Source: a virus. From it: DNA of 40,265 nucleotides. Below the pieces are notes generated by a model. That model was given only the letters and a program-made list of their open reading frames with translations. It had not been told where the DNA came from and did not search any database. The stretch lies in the IMG/VR virus record IMGVR_UViG_3300034103_000888, positions 1-40,265 of that record; one strand, written 5' to 3'. Below are positions 4,886 through 29,869 of this stretch, piece after piece. A program made the position numbers and the translations under genes. Every line of letters begins with the position of its first letter. Position 1 is the stretch's first letter.

Positions 4886-5533
4886 TTAAGCTCCTAACTT
4901 ATAAAGCACTTCGGCGACACTTGCTTTTAGCTCGGCTAGTGTACCGTCGTTCGTGATAACGTGGTCAAACTTACAGTCGTCCAACTGTCCTTCTGTGGCA
5001 TGAGTCACAACGTCTGCATTAGGTCTTACAACCTTAATGAGGATTGCACCCATTGCCTTCATGCGTTCATATTCATTAGGCATACGGAGGTCATCAACGA
5101 TAATGTTCCACGAGATAGACTTAGCGACTTGGTTTTGCCATAAGTCAATCCAAAAATCTTTACCCCATGCTTCCCTTGCGAAAACGCCAAAGGTCTGCAT
5201 CATTTTACGACCTGTTAGTTCAGAGTTTGTGATTACAGGCATTTCCTTTAGGTCGCCGTGTAGCATTTGATAGGCTGTCCCATAAGGGATGCCCATATCC
5301 GCAAGAAGCCCTTGAAGACATTCCTTGAGTGGATTCGCTAAGGGGACTCGTGATGTATGCCCTTCAAGCTCCAAAGCCTCCCTTAAGGCTCTTGCTACTG
5401 TGGACTTGCCACTTTGAGGAGTTGGTGAGTAAATGGCGATAATACGCTTACGACGTGGAGCTTCATGTTTACGACGCTCAAAGGCACTGTCTACGACTGC
5501 CTGCACTTGGTCTAGTTGTTCAGGTTTAAGCAT
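4886..5533 (-). CDS. deoxynucleoside monophosphate kinase-like P-loop protein
   Basis: A 215-residue protein with a Walker A loop, PTPQSGKST, at about residues 37-45, preceded by a hydrophobic beta strand (IIAIYS). A later segment, WNIIVDDLRMPNEYERMK (about 142-159), is typical of phage dNMP and adenylate kinase-like proteins, where an R-x-x-x-E region follows a beta strand. It probably phosphorylates dNMPs released from degraded host DNA, feeding phage DNA synthesis in the cytoplasm. The ATG has TAGGAGG upstream. It sits after the exonuclease cluster, consistent with nucleotide recycling. Exact substrate unknown. Confidence 0.75.
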   Translation of the reverse strand: MLKPEQLDQVQAVVDSAFERRKHEAPRRKRIIAIYSPTPQSGKSTVARALREALELEGHTSRVPLANPLKECLQGLLADMGIPYGTAYQMLHGDLKEMPVITNSELTGRKMMQTFGVFAREAWGKDFWIDLWQNQVAKSISWNIIVDDLRMPNEYERMKAMGAILIKVVRPNADVVTHATEGQLDDCKFDHVITNDGTLAELKASVAEVLYKLGA

Positions 5534-5545
5534 TGGCTGATCCTC

Positions 5546-5848
5546 CTAATTAAAAATACTTTTTACTTTTTCTTCTATGGAAGTCATGGCATCATCCCAG
5601 CCTTGTTCATACGAACGCTTTTCTACGCTTGCACGTCCGTCGTCGTAGCAAAGTTGTGCGACGCAATTTAAGAAGTGTTCGCTCACTATGCTTTTTCCGT
5701 CACGCCATTCTTTGCAACTTGGAGCCTGTAAAGCTATTTGCTTTAGATACAGAACTCTTTGCGATATTTCAGGGTCTCCGTTTGACAGAGTAGCCAAGTG
5801 TAAGCTATCAGCTTCCTTTTGTATTTTGTCCCAAAACTCATTAGACAT
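5546..5848 (-). CDS. hypothetical protein
   Basis: A 100-residue charged, helical protein with several Cys residues (around 50, 67 and 73) but no clear metal-binding spacing. The ATG at 5848 has GGGAG about nine bases upstream and is preferred over the in-frame ATG at 5869. It overlaps the preceding gene by eight bases, suggesting coupled translation. It belongs to the DNA-metabolism transcript; function unknown. Confidence 0.7.
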   Translation of the reverse strand: MSNEFWDKIQKEADSLHLATLSNGDPEISQRVLYLKQIALQAPSCKEWRDGKSIVSEHFLNCVAQLCYDDGRASVEKRSYEQGWDDAMTSIEEKVKSIFN

Positions 5849-6047
5849 TAGCGGATTCTCCCAAGTCAAAAAGACGTGCTTTCAGGGATTCAATCTCTTG
5901 ATTTGCTCCGCATAGCTGTCTTTCTAACTCATCCTTCTCATTGTCAAGCTCAACCCATGCCTCTTCAAGTTCTTTGAACTTGTCGCCCGTAGAGGCATGG
6001 GAGTATCTAAAGTCTTCTGCTAAGCTTCTAAACTCTTTAAAATCCAT
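5841..6047 (-). CDS. small coiled-coil protein
   Basis: A 68-residue protein dominated by a heptad-like charged helix (about residues 20-60), probably a short coiled coil. The open frame extends to 6152, but the ATG at 6047 has AGGAAGGA upstream and the upstream part only shadows the exonuclease gene, so the shorter form is called. Its stop overlaps the next start. No enzymatic motif; possibly an adaptor or inhibitor. Confidence 0.65.
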   Translation of the reverse strand: MDFKEFRSLAEDFRYSHASTGDKFKELEEAWVELDNEKDELERQLCGANQEIESLKARLFDLGESANV

Positions 6048-6051
6048 TTCT

Positions 6052-6840
6052 TTATCCTTCCTGTGGGGGTTGCCACAATATAATTTCTTTACTCTTCGCT
6101 TTGTAGTCTTTGGCTTGTAGAATGTACGCAAGCCGTGCCGTCTTAATGGCATCGTCTACCGTCATTCCTTTACTTTCATAAGCCTTGACAACACTCGCCC
6201 AAGTCCAGCCTTCTTTATCAAGCCACTTGGTCGCCGTCTTAATACCAAAGCCTTCACATCCCTTGTAGCCGTCACAAGCGTCACCCATGAGTGTTTGTAG
6301 TAGGTGAAACTTTCTAGCGTCTTCTGGGCTTACTAGCACGCTCTGCTCGTCATTGAATAAATCTTGAAGTAAGCCAGGTATGGTCTTCATGTCTTTATCA
6401 ACCGTCCAGATTGTTTTCTCGTAATCAGGCATGAACTTTTTAGATGTCGAAAGAATCCCTAACACATCGTCGCCTTCAAGTCGTTCAATCGTTTTGCACC
6501 TGTAATGCTTTGTAGCCTCATGTTTCACCTTGAGTAAGTGATTCGGTCTTGGCTTACCTGCTCTGTTGGACTTGTAAAAGGAGTCGATGTCTTTACGAAA
6601 ATTGCTGTATGGATCTGAAAACACAATCACGATGTCGTCAACAACATTTTTGATTGCATTTACATACGTTTCAAAGACTTCCCACGCATCATGGAAGTAT
6701 CCTTCAACGGAAGAGAAGTCGTCGGTCTCTGCGTCACCTGGAAAAAAGACTTCATAGACAACACCAGCACACGCCTTGTAGGCGAGAATGTCACCGTCAA
6801 TCAAGGCTAGTTTAGGCTTGTCCTTCTTTAGGTTGCCCAT
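6052..6840 (-). CDS. 5'-3' exonuclease (T7 gp6 / FEN family)
   Basis: A 262-residue flap/5' nuclease. The N-terminal metal site LALIDGDILAYKA (about 11-23), the central segment ERLEGDDVLGIL (about 119-130), the following TVDKDMKT loop and the DACDGYKGCEGFGIKTA helix-hairpin-helix-like region (about 187-203) are signatures of the family. In T7 this enzyme degrades host DNA, removes RNA primers and helps concatemer processing. The ATG has GAGGAG upstream. In T7 it follows the DNA polymerase gene; here it follows a methyltransferase and a phosphoesterase. Confidence 0.88.
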   Translation of the reverse strand: MGNLKKDKPKLALIDGDILAYKACAGVVYEVFFPGDAETDDFSSVEGYFHDAWEVFETYVNAIKNVVDDIVIVFSDPYSNFRKDIDSFYKSNRAGKPRPNHLLKVKHEATKHYRCKTIERLEGDDVLGILSTSKKFMPDYEKTIWTVDKDMKTIPGLLQDLFNDEQSVLVSPEDARKFHLLQTLMGDACDGYKGCEGFGIKTATKWLDKEGWTWASVVKAYESKGMTVDDAIKTARLAYILQAKDYKAKSKEIILWQPPQEG

Positions 6841-7633
6841 AACGACTCCTCATTTCTTCATAACTGATTTGTTCTAACTCAAAGCGTCCTTCTACCACGT
6901 TGTGCAACACCACTAAGCCCTTCCACCAAGCGTTGTTGTCGTCGCCTGCATAGTCTTGGTGGTGGTCAAAGTAACACCCTGCCACAACGATATTGATTTC
7001 TTTGCCTGTGGGTGTTCTATAATTTCTGTACTCAAAGCGGTGACTATGCCCTTGTACGCAAGACTGTTGCCAGTCCCTCGCAATGTGCATCGTCATGTAG
7101 TCGCCAGAGTACCCACGATTGGTTCCACGCTTGGTAAAGTAATGGTTGAAGATAACACCTTCTACCTCTACCCTCTCTTGGAAGTTGTAGAACTCCCACC
7201 CCTGCCCTGCTGCGTCGCTTATATCTTGCGTCCACATTCCATAAAGGGTTGGATTGTCTTGCATATAACGCTCTATGCGTTGCTCGTGGTTGCCTGCAAG
7301 GGCGATTAAGCGTGGCTTGTACACTTTGTGCTTAGATGCCTTTTGGGCTTCTTGTAGCCTGCGTAGGGGGGCTGTGACTAAACGTCTCGCCTCTTTGGCA
7401 CTTGCCATATCACGCTCAAGGCGTTTGTTCTCTGCTCGAACTGTGCCTTTATCATAGTGGCTTATGCTATTCATATCGGCAAAGTCGCCTAAGTCCACGA
7501 TAATATCGGGTCGTAGTTCTACGATTAACTGACCTAGCCACTCGTAACGTTCTTGTGAGACAAGGGGGTCGTCGTGACTATCTGGAATGACAAGAATCGT
7601 CTTGCCAAGCCTTTGTTTTTTTCTTTTACTCAT
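6812..7633 (-). CDS. calcineurin-like metallophosphoesterase
   Basis: A 273-residue protein with the ordered metal-binding motifs of the superfamily: PDSHDD near the N-terminus (about 16-21), DLGDF (about 47-51), AGNHEQR (about 112-118), a later His block and GHSHRFEYR (about 199-207). It would hydrolyse phosphoester bonds in a nucleic acid, nucleotide or protein; the substrate cannot be told. The ATG at 7633 (AAGG upstream) is preferred to the far upstream frame start inside the methyltransferase. It overlaps both neighbours by a few bases. It lies in the slot where T7-like phages usually carry DNA polymerase. Confidence 0.85.
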   Translation of the reverse strand: MSKRKKQRLGKTILVIPDSHDDPLVSQERYEWLGQLIVELRPDIIVDLGDFADMNSISHYDKGTVRAENKRLERDMASAKEARRLVTAPLRRLQEAQKASKHKVYKPRLIALAGNHEQRIERYMQDNPTLYGMWTQDISDAAGQGWEFYNFQERVEVEGVIFNHYFTKRGTNRGYSGDYMTMHIARDWQQSCVQGHSHRFEYRNYRTPTGKEINIVVAGCYFDHHQDYAGDDNNAWWKGLVVLHNVVEGRFELEQISYEEMRSRYGQPKEGQA

Positions 7634-8595
7634 TGATTCGCCTTGATTGGTTTTAAGAGGTGTGCGATCACATCCACCGTCCACCCATTACCGATAGCCT
7701 TGTACCGTTGGGTGTCACTGATTGGTGTGAAGCCTTTATAGTCCTGCATATCGCCTAGCTTGGTGTAGTTGTCTGGCAAGGTCTGTAAGCGTTCAGCTTC
7801 AATAGGCGTAAGCTTGCGTACAAGGTAATCACCGTCGGGTAAATCCACCTTATAAAGCCCAGTTTTGGCTCCTTGACCACCGCCATTCGCCGTCAAATTG
7901 ACGGACTTTCCTTGAATGGAATAGATGCGTTGACCTTGACCACCTTTACCGATATGCCCTAGTCGTACTGGTTCTGCAACCATTGTCCGTTGGCTTTTAA
8001 TGATGCTATTCCAAAACACGGCTCCACTATAACGTGCTGTCAAGCAGTGTGCCTTGTCTTGATACGGAATGCCAGACTCTAAGATGTCTTGCATCACAAC
8101 GCCCTTGTCCTGTGGCATCCCTGCAAAGGGTATGTTCGTCCAGTACAAGCGTTTGCGTTGTTGAGCGGATACCAACGAGCTGTTAATCTCGATAGGTTCT
8201 ACCCCTAACAGTTGGCTTACGGCGTTTCTCACATCCTTGTGAATAGAGGCGTTGTTCTCAACAAGAAAATACTTGGCGTTGGTCTCTTGAATTGCATCAA
8301 GCAATCTATGAAACAATTTGCCAGTCTCGCCGTCAAGGGTCGTCTCTCTGTCACGTTTGGCAATGGAGATACCTGTGCATGGGAATCCACCCATAACCAA
8401 GTCCATGTCGCCTAGTGCTTTAAAATCTGCATCAAACACATTCCCTAGTTGTTGAGTGTAGGGAAACCTTAATTGTGTAATTGCCTTAGCGTATTTGTCA
8501 ATCTCACACGCATAGTAATAATCGTAATCAATACCTGCCTTTTGCAAGGCAATCTGACCGCATGATATGCCGTCGAATAAACTTAATACTTTCAT
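7630..8595 (-). CDS. DNA (cytosine-5) methyltransferase
   Basis: A 321-residue C5 methyltransferase. Visible motifs are LSLFDGISCGQIAL (SAM binding, residues 4-17), GGFPCTGISIA (catalytic Cys, about 69-79), FLVENN (motif VI), QQRKRLYW (motif VIII, about 145-152), RKLTPIEAERLQTLP (motif IX) and YKAIGNGWTV (motif X), in canonical order and intact. It would methylate cytosine in phage DNA, most simply to evade host restriction. There is no adjacent endonuclease gene, so it is an orphan enzyme. Its position directly after primase-helicase is unusual for a T7-like replication cluster. Confidence 0.93.
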   Translation of the reverse strand: MKVLSLFDGISCGQIALQKAGIDYDYYYACEIDKYAKAITQLRFPYTQQLGNVFDADFKALGDMDLVMGGFPCTGISIAKRDRETTLDGETGKLFHRLLDAIQETNAKYFLVENNASIHKDVRNAVSQLLGVEPIEINSSLVSAQQRKRLYWTNIPFAGMPQDKGVVMQDILESGIPYQDKAHCLTARYSGAVFWNSIIKSQRTMVAEPVRLGHIGKGGQGQRIYSIQGKSVNLTANGGGQGAKTGLYKVDLPDGDYLVRKLTPIEAERLQTLPDNYTKLGDMQDYKGFTPISDTQRYKAIGNGWTVDVIAHLLKPIKANQ

Positions 8596-8604
8596 TGGGT
8601 GTCC

Positions 8605-10338
8605 TTAAAAATTGTCGAAGGGATCGCTCTCGTCTTCAAATGCAGTAGACTCCTGTTTTGCTTTGGGAGCTTCTTCTGCTGTGAATAAATGCCTTACGTC
8701 TTTACGCTTTTCTTCAATGCGAAAATTGTGAGAGTTGTATTCAAGGTGAAATACTTCGCCACATGATGAGCCGACGTTACGATTCTTGAGTACCTTGATT
8801 CTCAACTTGGAGCGTTCGCTAGGGTCTTCTGCCACTTTGTTACGCATCAAGGCAAGGGTAACGTGTGCGGTCGATGTGACCATACGGCTACCTTTAAAGT
8901 GACGCTCAACAACATCTCCGCCTTCTTCGTGGGTCTTGCCTGTTTCGGGGGCTGTAAGATGTGACGCAAAGATTAAAGCAATATCAAGCTCTTGAACAAG
9001 GCTTGCTGCTTCACCCATGATTCTTTCAAGCAAGGTGTTTTCTTTTTCTTCCCTGCCTGTTGCAAGCTGTGTGAGGTTGTCGATAATGACGTACTGAACG
9101 CCGTCGTTGTGATGCCAGTGTCGAACGATTGTCTTCACCTTGTCCCACTCACACATTCCCATGTGTCGATAAACATGGAGTCTGTCTCGTGGCATATTCT
9201 CAAGGATTACACGCTTGCCTGCTTCTTTATCTTCTTTGTTATTGGGTAGATGATAGGGCTTGCCTGTCTGTTTGGCAGCTAGGATTAAGGCTAGGGTACT
9301 CGGCTGCATCTCAAACGAGAATAAGCCTACCTTAGCAGTCGTGTGTTTCAACAAATGAAATATCATCTCTGAAAACAGTTCTGTCTTACCAATGCCTGTA
9401 CCTGCTCCCACCAGGATAATCTCGTGGGTACGGATGCCTAGCATCTTCTCGTTCATCGAATCCCACGGATACGGTACACCTGCCTCTGTATCCACAAACG
9501 CTTCGTCGATCAAGTCTTCAAGTAAGCACACACCGTCTGGTGCAAACTTCTTGGGACTGTACAAGGCGTTACGAAGTTCGGCTCCCTTGTCTGCTATCAA
9601 CATTTCGTTAGCGTCTTTGTAAGGGCTTGGCAATTCAACAATGTGAGCCTTGCCGTTTGGTATAAGGGCTGCACATTCATTGCTTGCTTCACGTCCTGCG
9701 TCGTCCATATCGAAACAGAAGACGACCTTCTCAAATGAGCATAGCCATTCAAGGTTGGATGCTATGGTAGACTTGGCTTCTTTGCATCCTTTAGGGATAC
9801 TTACAACGGCTCGGTTATGTTTAACGCTTGCATTGAACACTTGATGTACCGTGATAGCGTCAACCTCACCTTCTGTTATGAAGATGTCCCACTTGGGGGC
9901 GTTGTTCCACAGATGCCTACCGTAAAGCTCTTTGTGTTTGCCGTCGCCTAGTAATGAGAACTTTTTATCTTTCATTCTCACCTTCTGACAAAGCAATACA
10001 CCTTCGGCATTACGGTAGTTCGCCACTTGGCAAGACTTGCCGTATAGTGTGCTTGTGCCGTACTCAAAGAAACGACACGACTCTTCACTCAACCCACGTT
10101 TAAGGAGTGGCTTGTAAGTGAGTTCAATAAAATCTTCTTTCACAAATAGAAGCTCCTCCTTTTTTTCTTGTGGAATATAAACAGGCTTGTCTTTCTTGGG
10201 TCTTGCGTTGGCATAGCCATAGTAGCCACACCCCATGCCGAAGCACTTCTCGTAGCCGTCGTTGTAGGTGGCTAGATTATTCTTGCTTCCGCATTCAGGA
10301 CAAGCCATGTGTTTGACAAGCTTACGTTTTAGATTCAT
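8605..10338 (-). CDS. fused DNA primase-helicase (T7 gp4-like)
   Basis: A 577-residue protein. An N-terminal zinc-binding domain (CPEC at about 12-15, then a second Cys pair near 31 and 36) is followed by a TOPRIM core (ITEGEVDA near 161-168; CFDMDDAGREA near 211-221) and a RecA-type helicase with Walker A GAGTGIGKTE (about 314-323), Walker B YVIIDN and an FKGSR element like that of T7 gp4. The acidic tail ends DPFDNF; in T7 the acidic tail of gp4, ending in Phe, docks on DNA polymerase. The ATG at 10338 has GGAGGGA upstream. Here it would unwind DNA and prime lagging strands. Confidence 0.94.
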   Translation of the reverse strand: MNLKRKLVKHMACPECGSKNNLATYNDGYEKCFGMGCGYYGYANARPKKDKPVYIPQEKKEELLFVKEDFIELTYKPLLKRGLSEESCRFFEYGTSTLYGKSCQVANYRNAEGVLLCQKVRMKDKKFSLLGDGKHKELYGRHLWNNAPKWDIFITEGEVDAITVHQVFNASVKHNRAVVSIPKGCKEAKSTIASNLEWLCSFEKVVFCFDMDDAGREASNECAALIPNGKAHIVELPSPYKDANEMLIADKGAELRNALYSPKKFAPDGVCLLEDLIDEAFVDTEAGVPYPWDSMNEKMLGIRTHEIILVGAGTGIGKTELFSEMIFHLLKHTTAKVGLFSFEMQPSTLALILAAKQTGKPYHLPNNKEDKEAGKRVILENMPRDRLHVYRHMGMCEWDKVKTIVRHWHHNDGVQYVIIDNLTQLATGREEKENTLLERIMGEAASLVQELDIALIFASHLTAPETGKTHEEGGDVVERHFKGSRMVTSTAHVTLALMRNKVAEDPSERSKLRIKVLKNRNVGSSCGEVFHLEYNSHNFRIEEKRKDVRHLFTAEEAPKAKQESTAFEDESDPFDNF

Positions 10339-10684
10339 GGAAGGTGTCCCTCCAGATCTCAAGCTGTTGCTCAAAGCGTTTCAAGACAGGGTGGTTTTGG
10401 TCGACTCTTGTAAAGAACCTTGTAAGGGCTTCAATCGTTTCTTCTCTCGTCATGCCTTTTTGTGAGGATGTGAAGTAGTATTTGTTACGACTCCCACCAC
10501 CTGCCATAGGCGTGATTTCAAGGGTGAAATTAAATTGAAGTACCGCTCGGTTAGGGTTCATGCGTTGAGTCAACGCCCTAGCCTCTTCAACATCTTTCTC
10601 TTTACTGACTGGCACTGAAAACCCTGTGAGCATATCTGAACAAAAGAAGCTAAAAAGGATTTGTTTTTTTACGTTTGCGTACAC
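10322..10684 (-). CDS. hypothetical protein upstream of primase-helicase
   Basis: A 120-residue protein starting with GTG at 10684, chosen because AAAGGAG lies eight bases upstream. It appears to be a compact mixed alpha/beta protein with a beta-rich middle (about 47-72) and a C-terminal helix. It overlaps the primase-helicase start by 17 bases and the preceding gene by 35 bases. Function not recognised; the context suggests a replication accessory. Confidence 0.7.
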   Translation of the reverse strand: MYANVKKQILFSFFCSDMLTGFSVPVSKEKDVEEARALTQRMNPNRAVLQFNFTLEITPMAGGGSRNKYYFTSSQKGMTREETIEALTRFFTRVDQNHPVLKRFEQQLEIWRDTFHESKT

Positions 10685-10958
10685 GCCTGTTACTCCTTTG
10701 GTTCTTTCGCTTGGTTGCCCAAGCTTTTACGGTTTCTAGTGACTGCACCGCAATACAGGGGGGGACTTCATTCCACGCCATAACGGAGTAGTCGTCATAA
10801 GTGTTGGGCTTGTCATATCTAGGGAGTAGTCTGTAGCCAACTTCGTGAAGTTCACGCCTAGCCCCTTCATGCGCCCTGTGAGACGATATAGGGAATTGCC
10901 TGAACCAAACTCTACGTTCACGCAAACGAAAGCATAGGGGCTTAACAGTACGGCTCAT
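10650..10958 (-). CDS. hypothetical basic protein
   Basis: A 102-residue strongly basic protein with an Arg-rich N-terminal third and a C-terminal tail of alternating Arg/Lys (about 85-100), suggesting nucleic-acid binding. The ATG at 10958 overlaps the last base of the preceding stop (TAATG arrangement) and has TTGGAG upstream. It lies in the DNA-metabolism transcript. No family recognised. Confidence 0.7.
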   Translation of the reverse strand: MSRTVKPLCFRLRERRVWFRQFPISSHRAHEGARRELHEVGYRLLPRYDKPNTYDDYSVMAWNEVPPCIAVQSLETVKAWATKRKNQRSNRRVRKRKKTNPF

Positions 10959-11383
10959 TATGGACTCCAACACACAAAGCTTGAAAAACTGCCGTCATAA
11001 GTATTCAAGTCAATCTCTGGCAAGTCCAGTGCATCGACTCTCTCATCAAGGATTGCGTCAATCTTGGCGATAGTATCCATGCCTAACTGCATACAACGCA
11101 CTGGCTTAGGCAAGGCACCAGCAATATCAATCTCTTGATTCATGCCTGCTGAACGTCCAAGTTCTGTGAATACCCACACTTCGTCACAATCGACAAGCAT
11201 TTGAATACCACGCTTGATGCCAGCTTGCCGACCTGTCCGCTCATCGATGAACTGTGGGTAGAACAAGTGAGGGGCGAACGGATTGTTGCCTGTCCCTACA
11301 ACAAACCTACACGCTTCTTGTGCGTACAACGTGTTTCGTTCAATGTCCCCAGCGAAAGGGGAGCATACGAAAATCTTTTTCAT
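10958..11383 (-). CDS. DUF4406 / nucleoside deoxyribosyltransferase-like protein
   Basis: A 141-residue protein with the fold signature of nucleoside 2-deoxyribosyltransferase-like and DUF4406 proteins: IFVCSPFAGDIERN at the N-terminus, GNNPFAPHLFYPQF in the middle, and CDEVWVFTELGRSAGMNQEI around residues 66-85, where the conserved SxGMxxE-type segment would hold the catalytic Glu. It may act on deoxynucleosides or nucleotides in salvage. Its place among nucleotide and DNA enzymes fits. The substrate is unknown, and many phage members are uncharacterised. Confidence 0.7.
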   Translation of the reverse strand: MKKIFVCSPFAGDIERNTLYAQEACRFVVGTGNNPFAPHLFYPQFIDERTGRQAGIKRGIQMLVDCDEVWVFTELGRSAGMNQEIDIAGALPKPVRCMQLGMDTIAKIDAILDERVDALDLPEIDLNTYDGSFSSFVCWSP

Positions 11384-11509
11384 CTACTCTTCCTCTTCCA
11401 CTTGGCAGAACATTTCGTCAATCAATACTTCTATTTCATCAATGACTGATTGAAGAGAGGCTGTCTTGAGTCGAAGCTCATTGACTGCTGTTGCAAGATC
11501 TTTAGACAT
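11384..11509 (-). CDS. small acidic helical protein overlapping endonuclease I
   Basis: A 41-residue protein found by hand: ATG at 11509 with AAGGAG eleven bases upstream, an open frame, and a stop directly before the next gene's start. It reads as one charged helix (MSKDLATAVNELRLKT...) with a Glu-rich end. Its first 79 bases overlap the C-terminal extension of the endonuclease gene in another frame. Resembles small helical adaptor proteins of phage early-middle operons; function unknown. Confidence 0.5.
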   Translation of the reverse strand: MSKDLATAVNELRLKTASLQSVIDEIEVLIDEMFCQVEEEE

Positions 11510-11967
11510 CGTTTCTTGGTCTCCTTGAGGTCTTGGAATATGTCTGCATCACTCCATGCTGTCTGTTCGTGAATCCACGATAAAATGGATTCCTTATCTT
11601 TGGCGTCGCACCACTTAAACCCATGCTTGGTCGCCCACATTGAAATTGTGGTTTTGCTTCCCTTGTTGATTGGTTGTGTTGGACGGTCAAAGATAAAACG
11701 AATATCCAAGTGAGGAGCTGACGCTTTAACTAGTAACATTTTCTGTCGGTCTGCGGACTCGAACATTCCCTTTGTTTCAAGGATGATGCCGTTTCCGAGT
11801 ATCCAGTCTGGCTTATAGAAGTGAAGCTTTGCTGGTTTTATGTAATGTAGTTGTTCTGATTCGTAAGTGAACTTTGCCCCTATGGACTTGAGCCACTCGC
11901 CAAGTTGTTTCTCGCTTCCACTACGGTATCCGCCACCACGCTTAAAGCGAAATGGTTGGTATGCCAC
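11431..11967 (-). CDS. endonuclease I, Holliday-junction resolvase (T7 gp3-like)
   Basis: A 178-residue nuclease with the catalytic set of T7 endonuclease I in order: Glu in RSGSEKQL (residue 19), Asp in YKPDWIL (about 54), and Glu and Lys in LETKGMF (about 64 and 66). It resolves branched DNA and helps break down host DNA. It is about 30 residues longer than T7 gp3; the extra C-terminal part overlaps a small gene in another frame (11384-11509). The start overlaps the SSB stop by one base. As in T7, it follows the SSB gene. Confidence 0.92.
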   Translation of the reverse strand: MAYQPFRFKRGGGYRSGSEKQLGEWLKSIGAKFTYESEQLHYIKPAKLHFYKPDWILGNGIILETKGMFESADRQKMLLVKASAPHLDIRFIFDRPTQPINKGSKTTISMWATKHGFKWCDAKDKESILSWIHEQTAWSDADIFQDLKETKKRCLKILQQQSMSFDSRQPLFNQSLMK

Positions 11968-12650
11968 TAGAAGTCGTCCTCGCCTAGCTCTTCATCGTCT
12001 GCTTGACTGGGAGCTGTTGCCGTGTGAACGTAGCCGTCTTCTTCGGATTCGTCAAACATGAGAGCATCATTGCTGCCAGTGTATTCTTCAAGTTTGATAA
12101 TCTGTACGGCTTTTAATTTAGTTGAAACGCCAAGTGATCCACCAGATGCTAGCATATTGTAGACGCTCGCTTCAAACTGAACACGACAAATAGAGCCGTT
12201 GCCTACAAGTAGGTTGGTATCCGTGATGCGGTTTGCTTTGGCATCAACAACGGATACATGGCGTTCAAACGTCGTGCCGTCTTTCTTCCCAGCCTTTGAT
12301 GCGGTCTTGAAGCTCATACGAATCTTCCCTTCGGGGATCGACTCATTCATATCATGGTTTTTGTAGAAACGGTTGGTGAAGTTGCTGTATACATCCTTAA
12401 TGTCTTTAGGTTTCTTGCCTTTAGACTTGAGTACCTTTAGCACTTCTGAACCATTTTCACGGAGATACTCTTTGAGCATATCATCTAGCTTGGAAATCAT
12501 CTCTTGCGTGTTTACGTCTGACTCATCAAACGTCATGGTAATCTCGTAATTCTCTTCACCAGGATTAAACTTGTCTTCACGAGGCTTTGTAAGCCACGCA
12601 TAACTCGCTTCACCTTTCGGTGTTAGTACCTGAACATATTTCTTACTCAT
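11967..12650 (-). CDS. single-stranded DNA-binding protein (T7 gp2.5-like)
   Basis: A 227-residue protein located just before endonuclease I, as T7 gp2.5 is. The body is a mixed OB-fold-like sequence; the C-terminus is acidic and ends DDEELGEDDF, the hallmark terminal Phe tail of gp2.5 proteins, which in T7 contacts DNA polymerase and primase-helicase. It would coat single-stranded DNA at forks and recombination intermediates. AAAGGA precedes the ATG. It is the first gene after the 637-bp non-coding stretch, so it probably starts the middle transcription unit. Confidence 0.88.
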   Translation of the reverse strand: MSKKYVQVLTPKGEASYAWLTKPREDKFNPGEENYEITMTFDESDVNTQEMISKLDDMLKEYLRENGSEVLKVLKSKGKKPKDIKDVYSNFTNRFYKNHDMNESIPEGKIRMSFKTASKAGKKDGTTFERHVSVVDAKANRITDTNLLVGNGSICRVQFEASVYNMLASGGSLGVSTKLKAVQIIKLEEYTGSNDALMFDESEEDGYVHTATAPSQADDEELGEDDF

Positions 12651-15881: not shown

Positions 15882-15924
15882 GCCTTGTCTTTACTATACT
15901 TTGTGATTTAATTGTTGGTGGTGG

Positions 15925-15966
15925 TCTGCAAAATCCTTATCCCCAGTTCGAATCTGGGTGTCGCCT
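15925..15966 (+). other. attP core: 3' half of tRNA-Cys(GCA)
   Basis: The plus strand reads as a tRNA 3' half: anticodon loop CTGCAAA (anticodon GCA after U33), 3' anticodon stem ATCCT, four-base variable loop, T-arm CCCAG-TTCGAAT-CTGGG with a perfect five-pair stem, 3' acceptor strand TGTCGCC and discriminator T, as usual for tRNA-Cys. No 5' half is present, so it is not a functional tRNA. Phages that integrate into tRNA genes carry such a half to restore the target. CCA is not encoded. Confidence 0.8.
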
Positions 15967-16108
15967 TTTTTAAAACCCTTTAATACCAACGATTAAACCG
16001 ATTGTATAGCTCTTAACATTCAGTTACAAATCGACCACAAACCGCCACATATTGGGCTAAAAAACCACATTTGAGGTTCATGGACTCCACTCCGAGAGCT
16101 AGGGAACA

Positions 16109-17472: not shown

Positions 17473-18480
17473 TTACTTCATTGCTACTTCAAACGCACGG
17501 CTCAAGGCTTCGGGGCTTAAGTGTGCATAACGGTGTGTACTAACGGTGGAGCTATGCCCCATTGCCTTACCTGTGTCAAACAGTGGTACTCCACTGCTTA
17601 CTAAGGTCGAAGCAAACGTGTGTCGTGTGACGTATGGGACTAGCTCATCAGGCAATTCTAGTTCTGCTTTCATACGGTTCCAACGCTTGTACCAAGACTG
17701 ATAGGAATAAGGGTAGAGTCTGCCGTCTGGCGTAGCGTAAAGCACACGACGCTTGATAAAGTCCCTTACCTCACCCATAAGTGGGACGACGTGTTGCTTG
17801 CCGTTTTTCATCTCTTCTTTAGGGATGACAATCATGTCCCCCTTGACGTGATAGGTTGACAAGTGCAAGGCGTTACGAGTCCTTAAGCCTGTCTTCAACA
17901 TAATAATAAACATCTCTTCAAGCTTCTTGTCTTCACGACGCATCCACTGACGGATGTCTTGGATTTGTTGATGGTTCAAGTAAATTTCTCGTGTGCTGTC
18001 CTCCTTCGTTCTCGGGATTCTGACAAGTCTTTCGATGTAGTCACCTTCCATGCCCCACTTGAGCATCAACGATAAACTAGAAAGCTTACGATTGACGGTG
18101 GTGTTTGTGTTTTCTTTCTGCAAGTGTGCCGTATAAACTCTAATCTTGCGTGTGTCGATGTCTTTAAGGGGTGTCTCTGCTCCGAAGTAGTCCAACGCAC
18201 ACTGCCCTCTCTGGCGTGATTTAAGTCCGTCCTTAGCAAACTGCCAAGTCTGATTCCAGACACCGTAGAGAGCATCCTGTAGCGTTGCCTCGTAGAGTCC
18301 TTGCTTGACGGCTGGTTTCAAGTTACTGATTAAGTCAACTTGTAGCCAGTCGCCTTGTTTAACGTAGAAGTCTAGGGTTTCTGCTTCCCTCAAGGTCTTA
18401 AAAGATTTGCGGACACGTCGTCCGTCTCTGCCGTCTGTAAATAAAACTTCAAATGAATTACCACGTTTAGAGATTGCCAT
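17473..18480 (-). CDS. int: tyrosine-type site-specific integrase
   Basis: A 335-residue recombinase. An N-terminal arm-binding/SAM-like region (residues 1-150) is followed by a catalytic domain with Arg in KTGLRTRNAL (about 199), a beta-hairpin Lys region (EEMKNGKQHVVPL), PYVTRHTFAS (Tyr in the usual first His position, Arg conserved), MGHSSTVSTHRYAH with the His and the nucleophilic Tyr (about 317). All but the first His of the RKHRHY set are present, and that substitution is tolerated in many integrases. The ATG at 18480 has AAAGGA upstream. Supports a temperate lifestyle; the partner attP is at about 15.9 kb. Confidence 0.93.
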   Translation of the reverse strand: MAISKRGNSFEVLFTDGRDGRRVRKSFKTLREAETLDFYVKQGDWLQVDLISNLKPAVKQGLYEATLQDALYGVWNQTWQFAKDGLKSRQRGQCALDYFGAETPLKDIDTRKIRVYTAHLQKENTNTTVNRKLSSLSLMLKWGMEGDYIERLVRIPRTKEDSTREIYLNHQQIQDIRQWMRREDKKLEEMFIIMLKTGLRTRNALHLSTYHVKGDMIVIPKEEMKNGKQHVVPLMGEVRDFIKRRVLYATPDGRLYPYSYQSWYKRWNRMKAELELPDELVPYVTRHTFASTLVSSGVPLFDTGKAMGHSSTVSTHRYAHLSPEALSRAFEVAMK

Positions 18481-18548
18481 ATTATCGATTCCTTTCATGT
18501 TCAATTTAGGGGTGATAGAAAGCCCCATTCTTATTTATGTTTTATGTG

Positions 18549-18839
18549 TCAGTCGATGCTCAAAAACTCTTCAAGGCGTTTGCTTAATTGATAAGTTTTG
18601 TAGATCCCCTTGTGTGTGTCACGGATACTCACTAAGCGGTGCTTGTGCATCTCGTAGAGGTGTCTTAGTGCTACTTGCCTTGTAACCATAAGGTACTGCT
18701 CCGCTTCTCTCACTGTGCAAAGTCCTACTTCATCTAGCCAAGCAATGATTACGCTATAGACTAGGACTGTGCCTTTCTTGGTGTCGGGGGGAACAAGTCC
18801 CCCCTCCTTGAGATTGTTACTCAAGCCGTTAATATCCAT
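18549..18839 (-). CDS. winged-helix-like regulator upstream of integrase
   Basis: A 96-residue protein. Residues about 25-90 read as a winged helix: a helix (GTVLVYSVIIAWLDEVG), then TVREAEQYLMVTRQVALRHLYEMHKHRLV, which fits a helix-turn-helix, and a short wing before YQLSKRLEEFL. The ATG at 18839 has the ideal AGGAGG ten bases upstream. Its place just before int suggests control of integration or excision, or of early transcription. It could be an excisionase-like factor. Fold assigned by eye only. Confidence 0.6.
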   Translation of the reverse strand: MDINGLSNNLKEGGLVPPDTKKGTVLVYSVIIAWLDEVGLCTVREAEQYLMVTRQVALRHLYEMHKHRLVSIRDTHKGIYKTYQLSKRLEEFLSID

Positions 18840-18840
18840 T

Positions 18841-19002
18841 CTACCAAAACCTCCTGAAACCGATTGAGACTTCAAACAAGCCCAATCCTATTGTAACATT
18901 GTGCCAGTTATAAAATCTAGCAACCTTTGAAAAATCAAACTGTAAATAAAATCCTTTCGTTCTACTGATAAATACTTGAAACACTTTTAAATCTAAAAAC
19001 AT
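18841..19002 (-). CDS. small beta-rich hypothetical protein
   Basis: A 53-residue protein found by hand: ATG at 19002 with AGAGGA about eleven bases upstream; stop TAG two bases before the ATG of the next gene. It is rich in Phe and Ile, with the C-terminal segment VTIGLGLFEVSIGFRRFW alternating in a beta-like pattern. The unbroken frame and tight junction with the next start support translation. Function unknown. Confidence 0.6.
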   Translation of the reverse strand: MFLDLKVFQVFISRTKGFYLQFDFSKVARFYNWHNVTIGLGLFEVSIGFRRFW

Positions 19003-20449: not shown

Positions 20450-20569
20450 TTACTTTGCTATTGCGTAAACGCTGTAAACTGTTTCGTGTGCCTCGTGGTA
20501 CGCTTTCAACGAAATGAGAGAAGCCACGACGACGGATAAAATAACAAGGGCGATGATTTGGTTCTTCAT
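20450..20569 (-). CDS. small membrane protein
   Basis: A 39-residue protein with an N-terminal hydrophobic segment (residues 4-20) after MKNQ, then a polar helix. AAAGGA lies six bases before the ATG. Its codons for YHEAHE contain one copy of a 14-base sequence (20486-20499) that also occurs twice in the 22.1-22.7 kb non-coding region. Likely an inner-membrane early peptide. Confidence 0.58.
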   Translation of the reverse strand: MKNQIIALVILSVVVASLISLKAYHEAHETVYSVYAIAK

Positions 20570-21272: not shown

Positions 21273-21302
21273 TGTGTACAACATTGACACAGGTTGTACA
21301 AC
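21273..21302. promoter_or_regulatory. tandem palindromic operator with embedded -35 hexamer
   Basis: TGTGTACAAC (21273-21282), a ten-base spacer, then the perfect palindrome GTTGTACAAC (21293-21302). The half-sites repeat with a 20-base period (two helical turns), as expected for cooperative binding of two dimers. TTGACA, a perfect -35 hexamer for plus transcription, fills the spacer (21284-21289), although no good -10 follows. It sits between the divergent early operon and the plus-strand regulator gene, so the regulator is the likely ligand. Confidence 0.6.
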
Positions 21303-21344
21303 TTTGCAAGTGTTTGTTACGAAATTGTTACAAAGCTACATCAA

Positions 21345-21539
21345 ATGAATGATACAGTAAGCCAAAAGCATATATTAAAAGACGGTCGAAAACGCCGTGC
21401 TTTGCAGGTTTCAGACCATGCGTGGGATGTTGTGAGCCGTCTCGCATTGCGTAACGAATACCGAACGGTTTCCCTATTGGTTGAAGCCATTGGCAATGGG
21501 GAGATAGAGCTTAGAAAGAAAGACACTAGCAATGAATAA
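21345..21539 (+). CDS. ribbon-helix-helix-like regulator
   Basis: A 64-residue basic protein on the plus strand. After a basic arm, RRALQVSDHAWDVVSRLALRNEYRTVSLLVEAI (about residues 17-50) fits a strand, helix, turn and helix, as in Arc/CopG-type repressors. The frame opens at a TTG (21294), but that lies within the operator; the ATG at 21345 gives a normal-sized protein, although its Shine-Dalgarno is poor. A tandem palindrome lies just upstream. Its stop overlaps the next start by eight bases. Likely represses the divergent early operon and itself; the fold is assigned by eye. Confidence 0.65.
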   Translation: MNDTVSQKHILKDGRKRRALQVSDHAWDVVSRLALRNEYRTVSLLVEAIGNGEIELRKKDTSNE

Positions 21540-22074
21540 GATGCTTTTAAGCCTTTATCTTGTCTTTGCCTTAATTGCCTCCCCCTGTTTGGCTTTGGCT
21601 GACTATGAACACATTGAGATTGAATCCGTAGAGGTTCCACTAAAAAGCACTAAACTAAGAAAGTATTTTAGGGGCTACTCGTTCACTGTTCAAAACAAGG
21701 CATCAAAGCCAGTTCACTTAATCAATGCACAAGTAAAGAACGGTATCGACGGATCAATGGCTTACGCTCTTATTGATGACGGGAGCGGTGTTGGTATTTG
21801 GTGGGCGATATGCGGACCAGTTGGCTTAATCACGTTCGGGATAGGTTGGGCTGTTGGTTTGGTTGGGACGCCTGTTTACCTTATTGTCAATAGTGTGAAA
21901 AAGAAGAAAGCTCGGGTCGAGTCATTAGCCTATACAAGCGTTGTGGACTTAGGAGTTCTAAACACTGGCGACACAATAGAAGTCAAGACGCTTGCACGAC
22001 TTGGGACAAAACCACAATTAAAACTAACCATGCAAGATACGGATACAAAAGAAGTCTTTTCAGTCTCTCACTAG
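21532..22074 (+). CDS. exported membrane protein, lysogeny-module candidate
   Basis: A 180-residue protein with a classical signal peptide (MNKMLLSLYLVFALIASPCLALA, probable cleavage after ALA at about 23). A polar beta-type domain (25-85) is followed by a Gly/Trp-rich hydrophobic hairpin (about 89-122), the basic block KKKK and a C-terminal beta domain (about 130-180). It is translationally coupled to the regulator on the plus strand, so it would be expressed from the repressor transcript, for example in a lysogen. Such genes often alter the cell surface or exclude other phages. No family was recognised. The lipobox-like SPC lacks a normal residue before Cys. Confidence 0.75.
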   Translation: MNKMLLSLYLVFALIASPCLALADYEHIEIESVEVPLKSTKLRKYFRGYSFTVQNKASKPVHLINAQVKNGIDGSMAYALIDDGSGVGIWWAICGPVGLITFGIGWAVGLVGTPVYLIVNSVKKKKARVESLAYTSVVDLGVLNTGDTIEVKTLARLGTKPQLKLTMQDTDTKEVFSVSH

Positions 22075-22121
22075 CCAACCACCCCACGCCCTTACAATGT
22101 ATCCAAACAATCCCTAACACC

Positions 22122-22654
22122 TCACCACGAGGCACACACTAGCCTCTCAATGAACGTATGAATAACGCACACACGACACGAGAGAGTAACGCAAGGCATC
22201 CTCAAGCATACGTTCACTAGTCATGCGGTTGTGGTGTAATGGGACGCAAAAATAAAGCAAACATTTGTTTACCTTTTCACTCAACATACACGTGAACAAC
22301 GTATAACCATACTACTATTGCCATTTGTTTACTACTATTCGGTTGTCAAGGTACTAAAGGAATGTTTAATCCCCTATACTATCCACTAAATACGCCTGTC
22401 AAGCCCTCCTTGTGGCGTGTGGTGTGGTCTAAAGTGTGGTTAAGGTGTCATCAAAGCCATTCACATACAGGCAAGGCGAGGGGGCTAGGGGGGAAGTCTG
22501 AATCCCAATAGTACGTTATACCCCCACACAAATCTTGGAGTGGTTTTTACGTTACCCATTCTCTCAATACATAATTCCTGCCAAGTTTTAGAGACGACTA
22601 CGTTGTGAGAGAGAGCGTAGTGTCCTATGAGAGCGATTGTGTGCCTCGTGGTGA
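22122..22654. repeat. 17-base inverted repeat pair
   Basis: TCACCACGAGGCACACA at 22122-22138 is the exact reverse complement of 22638-22654. Fourteen of these bases occur again at 20486-20499. The match is too long for chance in a 40-kb genome and may mark a protein-binding or packaging element. Confidence 0.7.
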
Positions 22655-22788
22655 TGTCTTACGGTGTGCTTGGCTATGTTCTTATGCGTTTGCTTGTTAC
22701 GTTGCTTAGGGAGGCGTACAGTTGCCTTGAAGGTGTCTGTTCATTATTACAAATGTTTAAACATACTTCAAGGCATTGTAACGTTTAA
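22627..22788 (+). CDS. possible small Cys-containing membrane protein
   Basis: A 53-codon plus-strand frame starting at ATG 22627: a hydrophobic N-terminus (residues 3-27) then a polar tail, with five Cys. The upstream GAGAGAG is only a weak ribosome site. It contains the second arm of the 17-base inverted repeat and the palindrome near 22.76 kb, and it lies antisense to late transcription. The frame could be accidental. Confidence 0.28.
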   Translation: MRAIVCLVVMSYGVLGYVLMRLLVTLLREAYSCLEGVCSLLQMFKHTSRHCNV

Positions 22789-22803
22789 TAGCTAAAGTCT
22801 TTA

Positions 22804-28297: not shown

Positions 28298-29869
28298 TTA
28301 GACTTGGAATCTATAACCTGTAACAGACACATCTATGTTTAGGTTTGTTATGTCAGTGACGGCTTGAAATTGACGGTTTGAGTCGGTAGGTAACTCTAGG
28401 CTTTGGTCAAATGCCCTTGCAGATTGTGTGGTTGTATACCTCTGTGCATCTATACCTGTTTGAGACGTGACACCACGCATGGCAAACCATATGTTCCCTG
28501 CACCACCAGCCGATACAACATAAACATAAATATCTGCCGTTACCGCACCAACAGGTGTAAGACTTGATAAATCAAAGGTCGTGTAGTTTGTAATCGTCGC
28601 ATTGTAAATGTTGACATTTGACCCTACACGGTTGTCCGTCTGCCCTGTTTGAATAGAACTATTCCAAGAAGGGTCTGCAATCCCTGTAATACCACGCTTC
28701 CATGCCTTATGGTAGTTGATTTTAGAAGAACGCATATTCCATTCACTCACGATGAAGTTAATGATGTTCGCAGAACTATTTGTTCTCAAAGCCAAAGGCA
28801 ACTGCACAACTTTCTGTGATACAGAAGCAATAGTTAAAGTAGTAGCATTATTAGTGGTAGAAGCAACGTAACCGCCTGAATAAGCGTAAACGTAATACCA
28901 TGTATTGTTGGCAACCGTTAAGCCGTCGGCTAGTCCGTTGGCTCCGTTGGTAGCAAGGTCAAGGTTACGACTAGCTGAACTTAGCACGATGTTTACCGTG
29001 TTGTCTCGACTACGAGCGGTTAAAGCTCCGTTGAAGTTTACTCGTCGAGGACTCGCTGTATCAAAGGTCGGTAGGGGAGCATAGATAAATCCGTTGGGTA
29101 CCGTTAATGCTTCTACTACATCTAAACGCCCAGACAGGGCGTCTGTAATGACCTTCGTTGATATGCGTGTCCAGTTGGCGTTTACCGTCGTTGGTGCAGA
29201 GTTCGTGTTGTTAATTAAACACATCCACATTTCGTTAGTATGAAGCACAACGTTACCCACAACGTAAGCCGTAGCCGAACTCCACGCTGAACCCCCAGCC
29301 TGTCTCAAGGTGTCTACCTTGTTTGTGGTTGCGGTTAGGGTTGTGTTAGTGGTCGCTAGGTTCCCTTGTAGGGTTATAAGGTCGGCAACGATTGCTCCTC
29401 CACCCCCTACATCAATACCTGTAATAGCTTGTACCTGTCCGACTGTTACGGCATCGTTGACATTGACACCGCTTGCTAGATTTTTAATGACTCGTGACGT
29501 GGCATTAAGCTTTCCGTCAAAGTCTTGCTTAAGGATGTTGGCTACATCCCCTCGTACTTCAACCGCTGCATGAAGGGCTTGAGTAATGCCCTTCTGAATC
29601 GTTTCGCCGTCAAGGACGACTGCATTGGCAATGTTGACCTTGAGTGCGTCGGCATCTGTTACACGCTTAAAGACAATCAAAGCCCCATTGGCAGGGGCTA
29701 CATTAAAGCGTATCTCGGTGTCAGAGTGCCAAACATAATCGGTTGTGATTACCTTTAGCGATCCACCGACATACACCTTAACAAAGTCCCTGCTTGAGTA
29801 TTCAAAGCCTAATGCGTATATCGTGGTTGAACCATTCCCTGTGTAGGGAGTTTCACCAGTTGTTGGCAT
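28298..29869 (-). CDS. tail fiber protein with T7 gp17-type N-terminal domain
   Basis: A 523-residue protein. Residues about 1-150 match the T7 fiber N-terminal anchor (YTGNGSTTIYALGFEY, TTDYVWHSDTEIRFN, ALIVFKRVT, VVLDGETIQKGI), which binds the tail. A linker precedes a carbohydrate-binding-module-like unit at about 193-238 (WSSATAYVVGNVVLHTNEMW, then NWTRIS), of the CBM5/12 type. The C-terminal half is a beta-rich receptor-binding region ending in DVSVTGYRFQV. It determines host recognition. A short spacing separates it from the gp16-like gene. Confidence 0.88.
   Translation of the reverse strand: MPTTGETPYTGNGSTTIYALGFEYSSRDFVKVYVGGSLKVITTDYVWHSDTEIRFNVAPANGALIVFKRVTDADALKVNIANAVVLDGETIQKGITQALHAAVEVRGDVANILKQDFDGKLNATSRVIKNLASGVNVNDAVTVGQVQAITGIDVGGGGAIVADLITLQGNLATTNTTLTATTNKVDTLRQAGGSAWSSATAYVVGNVVLHTNEMWMCLINNTNSAPTTVNANWTRISTKVITDALSGRLDVVEALTVPNGFIYAPLPTFDTASPRRVNFNGALTARSRDNTVNIVLSSASRNLDLATNGANGLADGLTVANNTWYYVYAYSGGYVASTTNNATTLTIASVSQKVVQLPLALRTNSSANIINFIVSEWNMRSSKINYHKAWKRGITGIADPSWNSSIQTGQTDNRVGSNVNIYNATITNYTTFDLSSLTPVGAVTADIYVYVVSAGGAGNIWFAMRGVTSQTGIDAQRYTTTQSARAFDQSLELPTDSNRQFQAVTDITNLNIDVSVTGYRFQV

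Follow-up and report, generated by a model that had tools for sequence, protein, structure and literature searches.

The membrane proteins by which prophages exclude superinfecting phages are small envelope proteins encoded apart from the lytic operons of temperate phages, and an accessory gene unit that has its own regulatory signals is known as a moron. According to the LUZ100 report (PMC10134795), LUZ100 and other temperate T7-like phages place a regulator, an integrase, and an RNA polymerase gene in that order within a single-strand T7 layout, and a MarR-like regulator co-transcribed with the integrase is proposed for LUZ100. We analyzed a 40,265-nucleotide stretch of viral DNA (IMG/VR record IMGVR_UViG_3300034103_000888; the whole stretch is called the window here), which shares this order and layout and also carries a divergent pair of genes, ORF1 and ORF2; the protein product of ORF2 is called P0001. 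We consider it somewhat probable that the two genes form an autoregulated moron, carried by a temperate T7-like phage whose hosts belong to the Vampirovibrionales lineage, with modification of the lysogen envelope as the most likely role of P0001.

The window is a complete phage genome with a circular assembly: the 127 bases at its start recur unchanged at its end, the match stops before 128, and the genome without the end overlap is 40138 bp long. All but two of the convincing genes are minus-strand genes, and their succession is that of T7 (early genes, integrase, T7-type RNA polymerase, SSB, endonuclease I, primase-helicase, exonuclease, portal, capsid, tail, terminase, endolysin), the capsid and tail tubular genes being assigned from position and from BLAST matches to prophage genes. 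A T7-type RNA polymerase, the T7 gene order, an integrase, and an attP site in a tRNA gene are all present, the set expected of a temperate T7-like phage (Autographiviridae in the nomenclature of the records); the integrase and the tRNA-Cys attP support a temperate lifestyle. Using PF00476, we detected no T7-type DNA polymerase gene in the closed record (0 matches at E ≤ 10), even though positions 4886-12650 carry primase-helicase, SSB, endonuclease I, and exonuclease genes. A relative of the phage, L002, is a 7.8-kb viral contig with an RNA polymerase 98% identical to that of the window; it does not contain the region of the plus-strand pair, and no DNA polymerase gene was seen between its primase and the contig end.

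Three observations concern other parts of the genome. A C5-cytosine methyltransferase gene (7630-8595) lies between the primase-helicase and phosphoesterase genes, is apparently missing at that place in L002 (compared by eye), and looks like a recent insertion or loss. The T7-type tail fibre (28298-29869) possibly contains a carbohydrate-binding module (CBM_5_12, E = 9.9e-5, below the cut-off). The stretch between the plus-strand genes and the end of the late operon, a probable genome-terminus region, has no Rfam match and is bounded by a 44-nt imperfect inverted repeat (22100-22143 and 22633-22676, 80%), which has ACCACGAGGCACAC in common with the minus strand at 20499. A search for a phage RNA polymerase promoter motif by expectation-maximisation on 11 gaps returned only low-complexity motifs, and a search for exact repeats returned none.

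The attP core, located between the RNA polymerase and integrase genes, points to a host in the Vampirovibrionales lineage, non-photosynthetic relatives of cyanobacteria. It matches 328 of 382 genomes of the class; one genome (G051) is identical at 49/49 bases, the next best reaches 92%, and ARAGORN identified a tRNA-Cys(GCA) at the G051 match. The class is defined here as that of G001, a genome which holds Vampirovibrionales bacterium contig L099, and G051 belongs to the same order as G001; NCBI taxonomy places the order Vampirovibrionales in Vampirovibriophyceae, Candidatus Melainabacteria. Among 200 Pseudomonadota genomes, a sample centered on Chelatococcus sambhunathii (contig L107, G003), the core gave weak matches in five and was covered in none. 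After that of L002, the RNA polymerases closest to that of the window among those found are in T7-like prophages of G002 and G001 (40-41% identity), versus 38.6% for LUZ100, the best phage record. We found few phage reports for this lineage in the open-access literature; in one of them (PMC13157829), the prophages are related to a jumbo phage. Our finding links a complete temperate T7-like phage to this lineage.

We scored ORFs with a codon model trained on 12 known phage genes. Because the scores of ORF1 (0.164) and ORF2 (0.126) exceed those of every other plus-strand ORF of 60 aa or more (n = 47; mean -0.109, maximum 0.114), we consider these two the only convincing genes on the plus strand, in agreement with the preliminary description; the 12 known phage genes score higher than either (0.18-0.31, leave-one-out). 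Also as described there, the two genes overlap by 8 bases (21532-21539) and diverge from the early operon. ORF1 more likely starts at the ATG at 21345 (64 aa) than at the TTG at 21294 (81 aa). The P0001 gene also has a lower G+C content (0.429 against 0.456). Coordinates are collected in Table 1.

Table 1. Coordinates of the features discussed, as positions in the window.
Feature	Position	Strand	Basis
attP core, 3' half of tRNA-Cys(GCA) with T-run	15923..15971	+	49/49 identical to G051 tRNA-Cys
Tyrosine integrase	17473..18528	-	Pfam Phage_integrase E 7.4e-21; 26% identity with LUZ100 integrase
Winged-helix protein, gene directly upstream of integrase	18549..18875	-	MarR_2 E 0.0021, below cut-off
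Tandem TGTACAAC sites around TTGACA; candidate operator/promoter	21275..21302	.	Palindrome scan and shuffles
ORF1, small probable DNA-binding protein (RHH-like), 64 aa	21345..21539	+	Codon score; predicted secondary structure
ORF2 = P0001, exported membrane protein, 180 aa	21532..22074	+	Codon score; chromosomal family of Vampirovibrionales class
Stretch without convincing gene, 729 b, between plus-strand module and late-operon end	22075..22803	.	

Inspection by eye and a crude rule both indicate a signal peptide in P0001, cleaved between ALA and D. A Gly/Trp-rich hydrophobic block of 39 residues (84-122) is followed by KKKK. The signal peptide and the hydrophobic block bear out the earlier proposal of an exported envelope protein; the beta domains that it included did not receive support from the single-sequence structure model, which is too poor for use (pLDDT 40.7). 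We identified no relative of P0001 in Pfam, PHROG, NCBIfam, PADLOC, or PDB, and none in phage records, INPHARED, the 168 loci compared, or IMG/VR contigs, where scans with short conserved peptides had only close relatives within reach.

Relatives of P0001 occur in bacterial chromosomes, and they first came to light as weak hits in the genomes that hold two T7-like prophage loci. As a single query, P0001 matched 20 of 194 genomes of the class (best match: 46% over 176 aa, E = 1.7e-46), and the closest members by identity are those of G161 (46%), G171 (41%), and G041 (39%). At E ≤ 0.001, a 21-row profile of the family matched 53 of 289 class genomes, in some cases weakly. The phylum sample gave matches in 24 of 244 genomes, and all 24 had also been drawn by the class searches; the ~131 genomes first drawn in the phylum sample, some of which may belong to the class, yielded 0 matches. 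None of the 200 Pseudomonadota genomes matched the profile, which works in the class, although this sample has no positive control of its own. By sequence similarity, these searches show that P0001 is carried by a phage but belongs to a chromosomal family of predicted envelope proteins of the host class. None of the libraries searched annotates the family, and Pfam has no model for it; open-access literature on phages of the lineage and on temperate T7-like phages yielded no account of the family or of a regulator associated with it.

In a tree of 31 rows, P0001 clusters (support 92/70) with the members from G161, G171, and G255 plus a long three-row branch; from this grouping we infer transfer from chromosome to phage. 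No relative of P0001 was identified in G051; therefore, if the class was the source of the gene, it was donated by another member. The chromosomal relatives occupy ordinary and differing places, e.g., near ileS in G161 and mutL in G171 (named by eye). We read the surroundings of 11 family loci (L192-L201 and L249). Beside the members in G161, G171, and G255 lies a divergent gene for a small DNA-binding protein, at distances of 77, 83, and 58 bp, respectively; the G161 neighbor is RHH-like (HicB, E = 0.0011, just under the cut-off), the G171 neighbor is an HTH_3 protein (E = 6.9e-7), and the G255 neighbor resembles the latter by eye. No divergent small regulator gene was seen by eye on the ORF lists of the other eight. 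It is conceivable, yet in our estimate quite unlikely, that the closest family branch is a mobile cassette of a regulator and an exported protein between Vampirovibrionia chromosomes and phages, conferring envelope-level immunity, with the phage regulator replacing the MarR switch.

The chromosomal members share with P0001 a signal peptide, a hydrophobic insert, and a K-rich stretch. The insert ranges from 18 to 43 residues and is absent in 1 of 21 rows (L170); because its length varies and one row does without it, the parts that flank it may well lie in one compartment. In G041, two tandem copies (L194:8534-9930) lie beside sugar-epimerase and polysaccharide-export-like genes, as judged by eye, a neighborhood that hints at an envelope role of the family. 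The combined data support P0001 as an exported membrane protein, probably from the host lineage, and not as a protein of lysis or of the virion. If P0001 instead served lytic growth, it would be made early and replace or disturb its host relative for DNA entry, envelope loosening, or assembly, with the RHH protein as the timer. Such a role would fit a gene that adjoins the beginning of the early operon, close to what is probably the left end of the genome, and is a near neighbor of the endolysin gene, although on the opposite strand; however, the family is chromosomal and scattered without similarity to lysis or virion proteins, the amidase endolysin has its own gene, and the match for a possible holin-like gene is weak. 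We regard a lytic role as decidedly unlikely.

AlphaFold2, run on the ORF1 sequence alone, predicted a strand (16-22) and two helices (24-36 and 39-50) with a pLDDT of 74; the beta-alpha-alpha order of this predicted structure is that of the ribbon-helix-helix (RHH) monomer in MetJ/Arc regulators. Regulators of the MetJ/Arc type bind short tandem operator repeats. A Foldseek search against PDB returned nothing below E = 4.2, and no significant match was found in Pfam, NCBIfam, PDB, or PADLOC. PHROGs of unknown function gave two weak matches (E = 0.0036 and 0.0049), and the IMG/VR scan and phage records gave no relative. The remaining matches were a single weak one on a Gloeothece plasmid (E = 0.2) and, in 194 genomes of the host class, a broken one with four internal stops (E = 0.007). 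The label of an RHH-like regulator used in the preliminary description therefore stands on the predicted fold order and lacks a significant fold or family match, and we keep RHH protein as the likely label for ORF1.

An RHH antitoxin gene that overlaps the gene of its toxin is another way to read the pair, as the gene order and an 8-base overlap, both seen here, are typical of type II toxin-antitoxin pairs, and the top Foldseek row for ORF1, itself nonsignificant, is a chain of a VapBC complex. Yet P0001 is a predicted exported membrane protein whose chromosomal counterparts, in the loci read, have no overlapping partner; ORF1 ends only ~14 residues past its last helix; and neither protein has a PADLOC match. 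We consider a toxin-antitoxin function highly improbable, and we rejected the type II form with a cytoplasmic toxin and a C-terminal antitoxin tail based on the signal peptide and hydrophobic insert of P0001.

The MarR proteins of LUZ100, Limnohabitans, Pasto, and Lo5R7ANS and four prophage genes from Vampirovibrionales are mutually homologous; all were taken from the MarR place of LUZ100 or near it, as was the gene picked for BB8, which is not homologous to this group. A profile of the family (LUZ100 gp10) against the 306 ORFs in the window that are 35 aa or longer gave nothing better than E = 2, and ORF1 has no match to it. Since the window has no MarR homologue, another protein must do the work of MarR. 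The winged-helix gene upstream of the integrase was rejected as a MarR of the LUZ100 type (best pairwise E about 0.6, with profile comparison also against it), and because it is not homologous to the MarR proteins of the relatives, the RHH protein remains a candidate. Either of the two may have taken over the regulation of lysogeny, the winged-helix protein being the likelier.

Upstream of ORF1, GTTGTACAAC at 21293-21302 is a perfect 10-bp palindrome that encloses TGTACAAC at 21295-21302, and a second, 8-base copy of TGTACAAC lies at 21275-21282; the two sites are 20 bp apart, and TTGACA (21284-21289) sits between them. Perfect 10-bp palindromes are scarce genome-wide, with 11 observed versus a mean of 35.7 in dinucleotide shuffles, the pattern expected of a genome that avoids them. 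Only GTTGTACAAC among the 11 has a near copy within 34 bp; in the shuffle control, a palindrome with a near copy occurred at a mean of 0.06 and was present in 6 of 100 shuffles. No -10 hexamer was found at 16-18 bp from TTGACA, and this site was not among the predictions of a sigma-70 promoter scan. Of the tandem palindrome with a -35 hexamer noted previously, the TGTACAAC pair around TTGACA is confirmed, whereas a complete promoter is not. We interpret the sites as the probable operator and promoter region of the gene pair.

These sites also bear on the earlier proposal that the RHH protein acts as the immunity repressor, silencing the divergent early promoter as well, and that the exported protein serves superinfection exclusion, the two forming one compact immunity unit. 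One protein bound at the tandem sites, which lie between the pair and the early operon, could block transcription in both directions, and the MarR protein common to the phages and prophages named above lacks a counterpart in the window. However, the winged-helix gene directly upstream of the integrase occupies the place of MarR in LUZ100; the exact palindrome GTTGTACAAC occurs once in the genome, with no second exact operator at the RNA polymerase or integrase gene; and the sigma-70 scan did not locate an early promoter. ORF1 itself has no clear relative, and its fold match is nonsignificant. On this evidence the RHH protein is a candidate immunity repressor at most, and we rate the joint immunity unit as unlikely.

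We return to the autoregulated moron as the preferred interpretation. The pair is out of line with the phage operons and has its own tandem site, a candidate promoter, and its relatives indicate acquisition from outside, as they are chromosomal in the host class and none was found among the phages searched. The codon score and G+C content of the P0001 gene, both on the low side for this phage, speak for the same reading, while the failure to find a -10 element, the nonsignificant RHH fold match, and the lack of a P0001 relative in G051 speak against it. Under this interpretation, host RNA polymerase would transcribe the pair rightward, away from the early operon, and the ORF1 protein would bind the tandem TGTACAAC sites over the -35 hexamer, keeping the unit at a low or conditional level. 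Translation of ORF2 would be coupled to that of ORF1 across the overlap. P0001 would be exported by the Sec pathway and cleaved after ALA; the Gly-rich hydrophobic insert would anchor it in the membrane, with the remainder outside the cytoplasm, and its expression in the lysogen would change the envelope. As for the purpose of such a change, superinfection exclusion, in which P0001 would mimic the host relative or compete with it, is our leading guess, a tentative one. Among the phages searched P0001 was found in no other, which gives nothing to show that phages keep the gene. An unannotated envelope-protein family, taken up by a phage with a probable regulator, makes envelope-level exclusion concretely testable.

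In comparison with known systems, the window differs from phages of the LUZ100 type (PMC10134795) in having neither a MarR homologue nor a DNA polymerase gene and in having the divergent pair; its attP lies in tRNA-Cys, whereas LUZ100 has a tRNA-Leu beside its integrase. With neither a MarR nor a DNA polymerase gene found, the phage is an instructive exception among T7-like genomes. The T7-like prophages of G001 and G002 (L243-L247), from the order of the att match, are similar in RNA polymerase and in TerL (about 40% identity); they carry MarR-type genes beside the RNA polymerase gene and a gene for a 598-606-aa protein that resembles a T7-type polymerase by eye, and the window phage carries neither. 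P0001 and the RHH protein had no BLAST match in the stretches of these prophages that were read. The G002 prophage has a layout unlike T7, with replication genes leftward and late genes rightward; a gene for an exported 137-aa protein (L244:14463-14876, minus strand) lies opposite TerL at its right end, before tRNA-Val.

A general moron slot, i.e., an exported gene opposite the late operon after TerL, as in Limnohabitans phage L004 and prophage L090, was considered and rejected: it was found in 4 of 97 loci compared to 8 of 77 upstream controls, in a scan by a crude signal-peptide rule that missed the L090 gene and in which at least one of the four positives looks spurious. Limnohabitans phage YIMV22061 resembles the window in having one divergent exported gene, encoding a lipoprotein-like protein of 125 aa, between the early operon and TerL (L004:15510-15887); that protein is not homologous to P0001, and no regulator gene is annotated beside its gene. 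P0001 is phage-borne, and its gene is on the same strand as a regulator gene and overlaps it, whereas the regulator genes beside the closest chromosomal members are divergent. P0001 has the same type of gene placement as prophage superinfection-exclusion proteins, and no sequence relation to them was found. A moron with an envelope protein is a known kind of element; the P0001 family has no annotation in the databases covered here.
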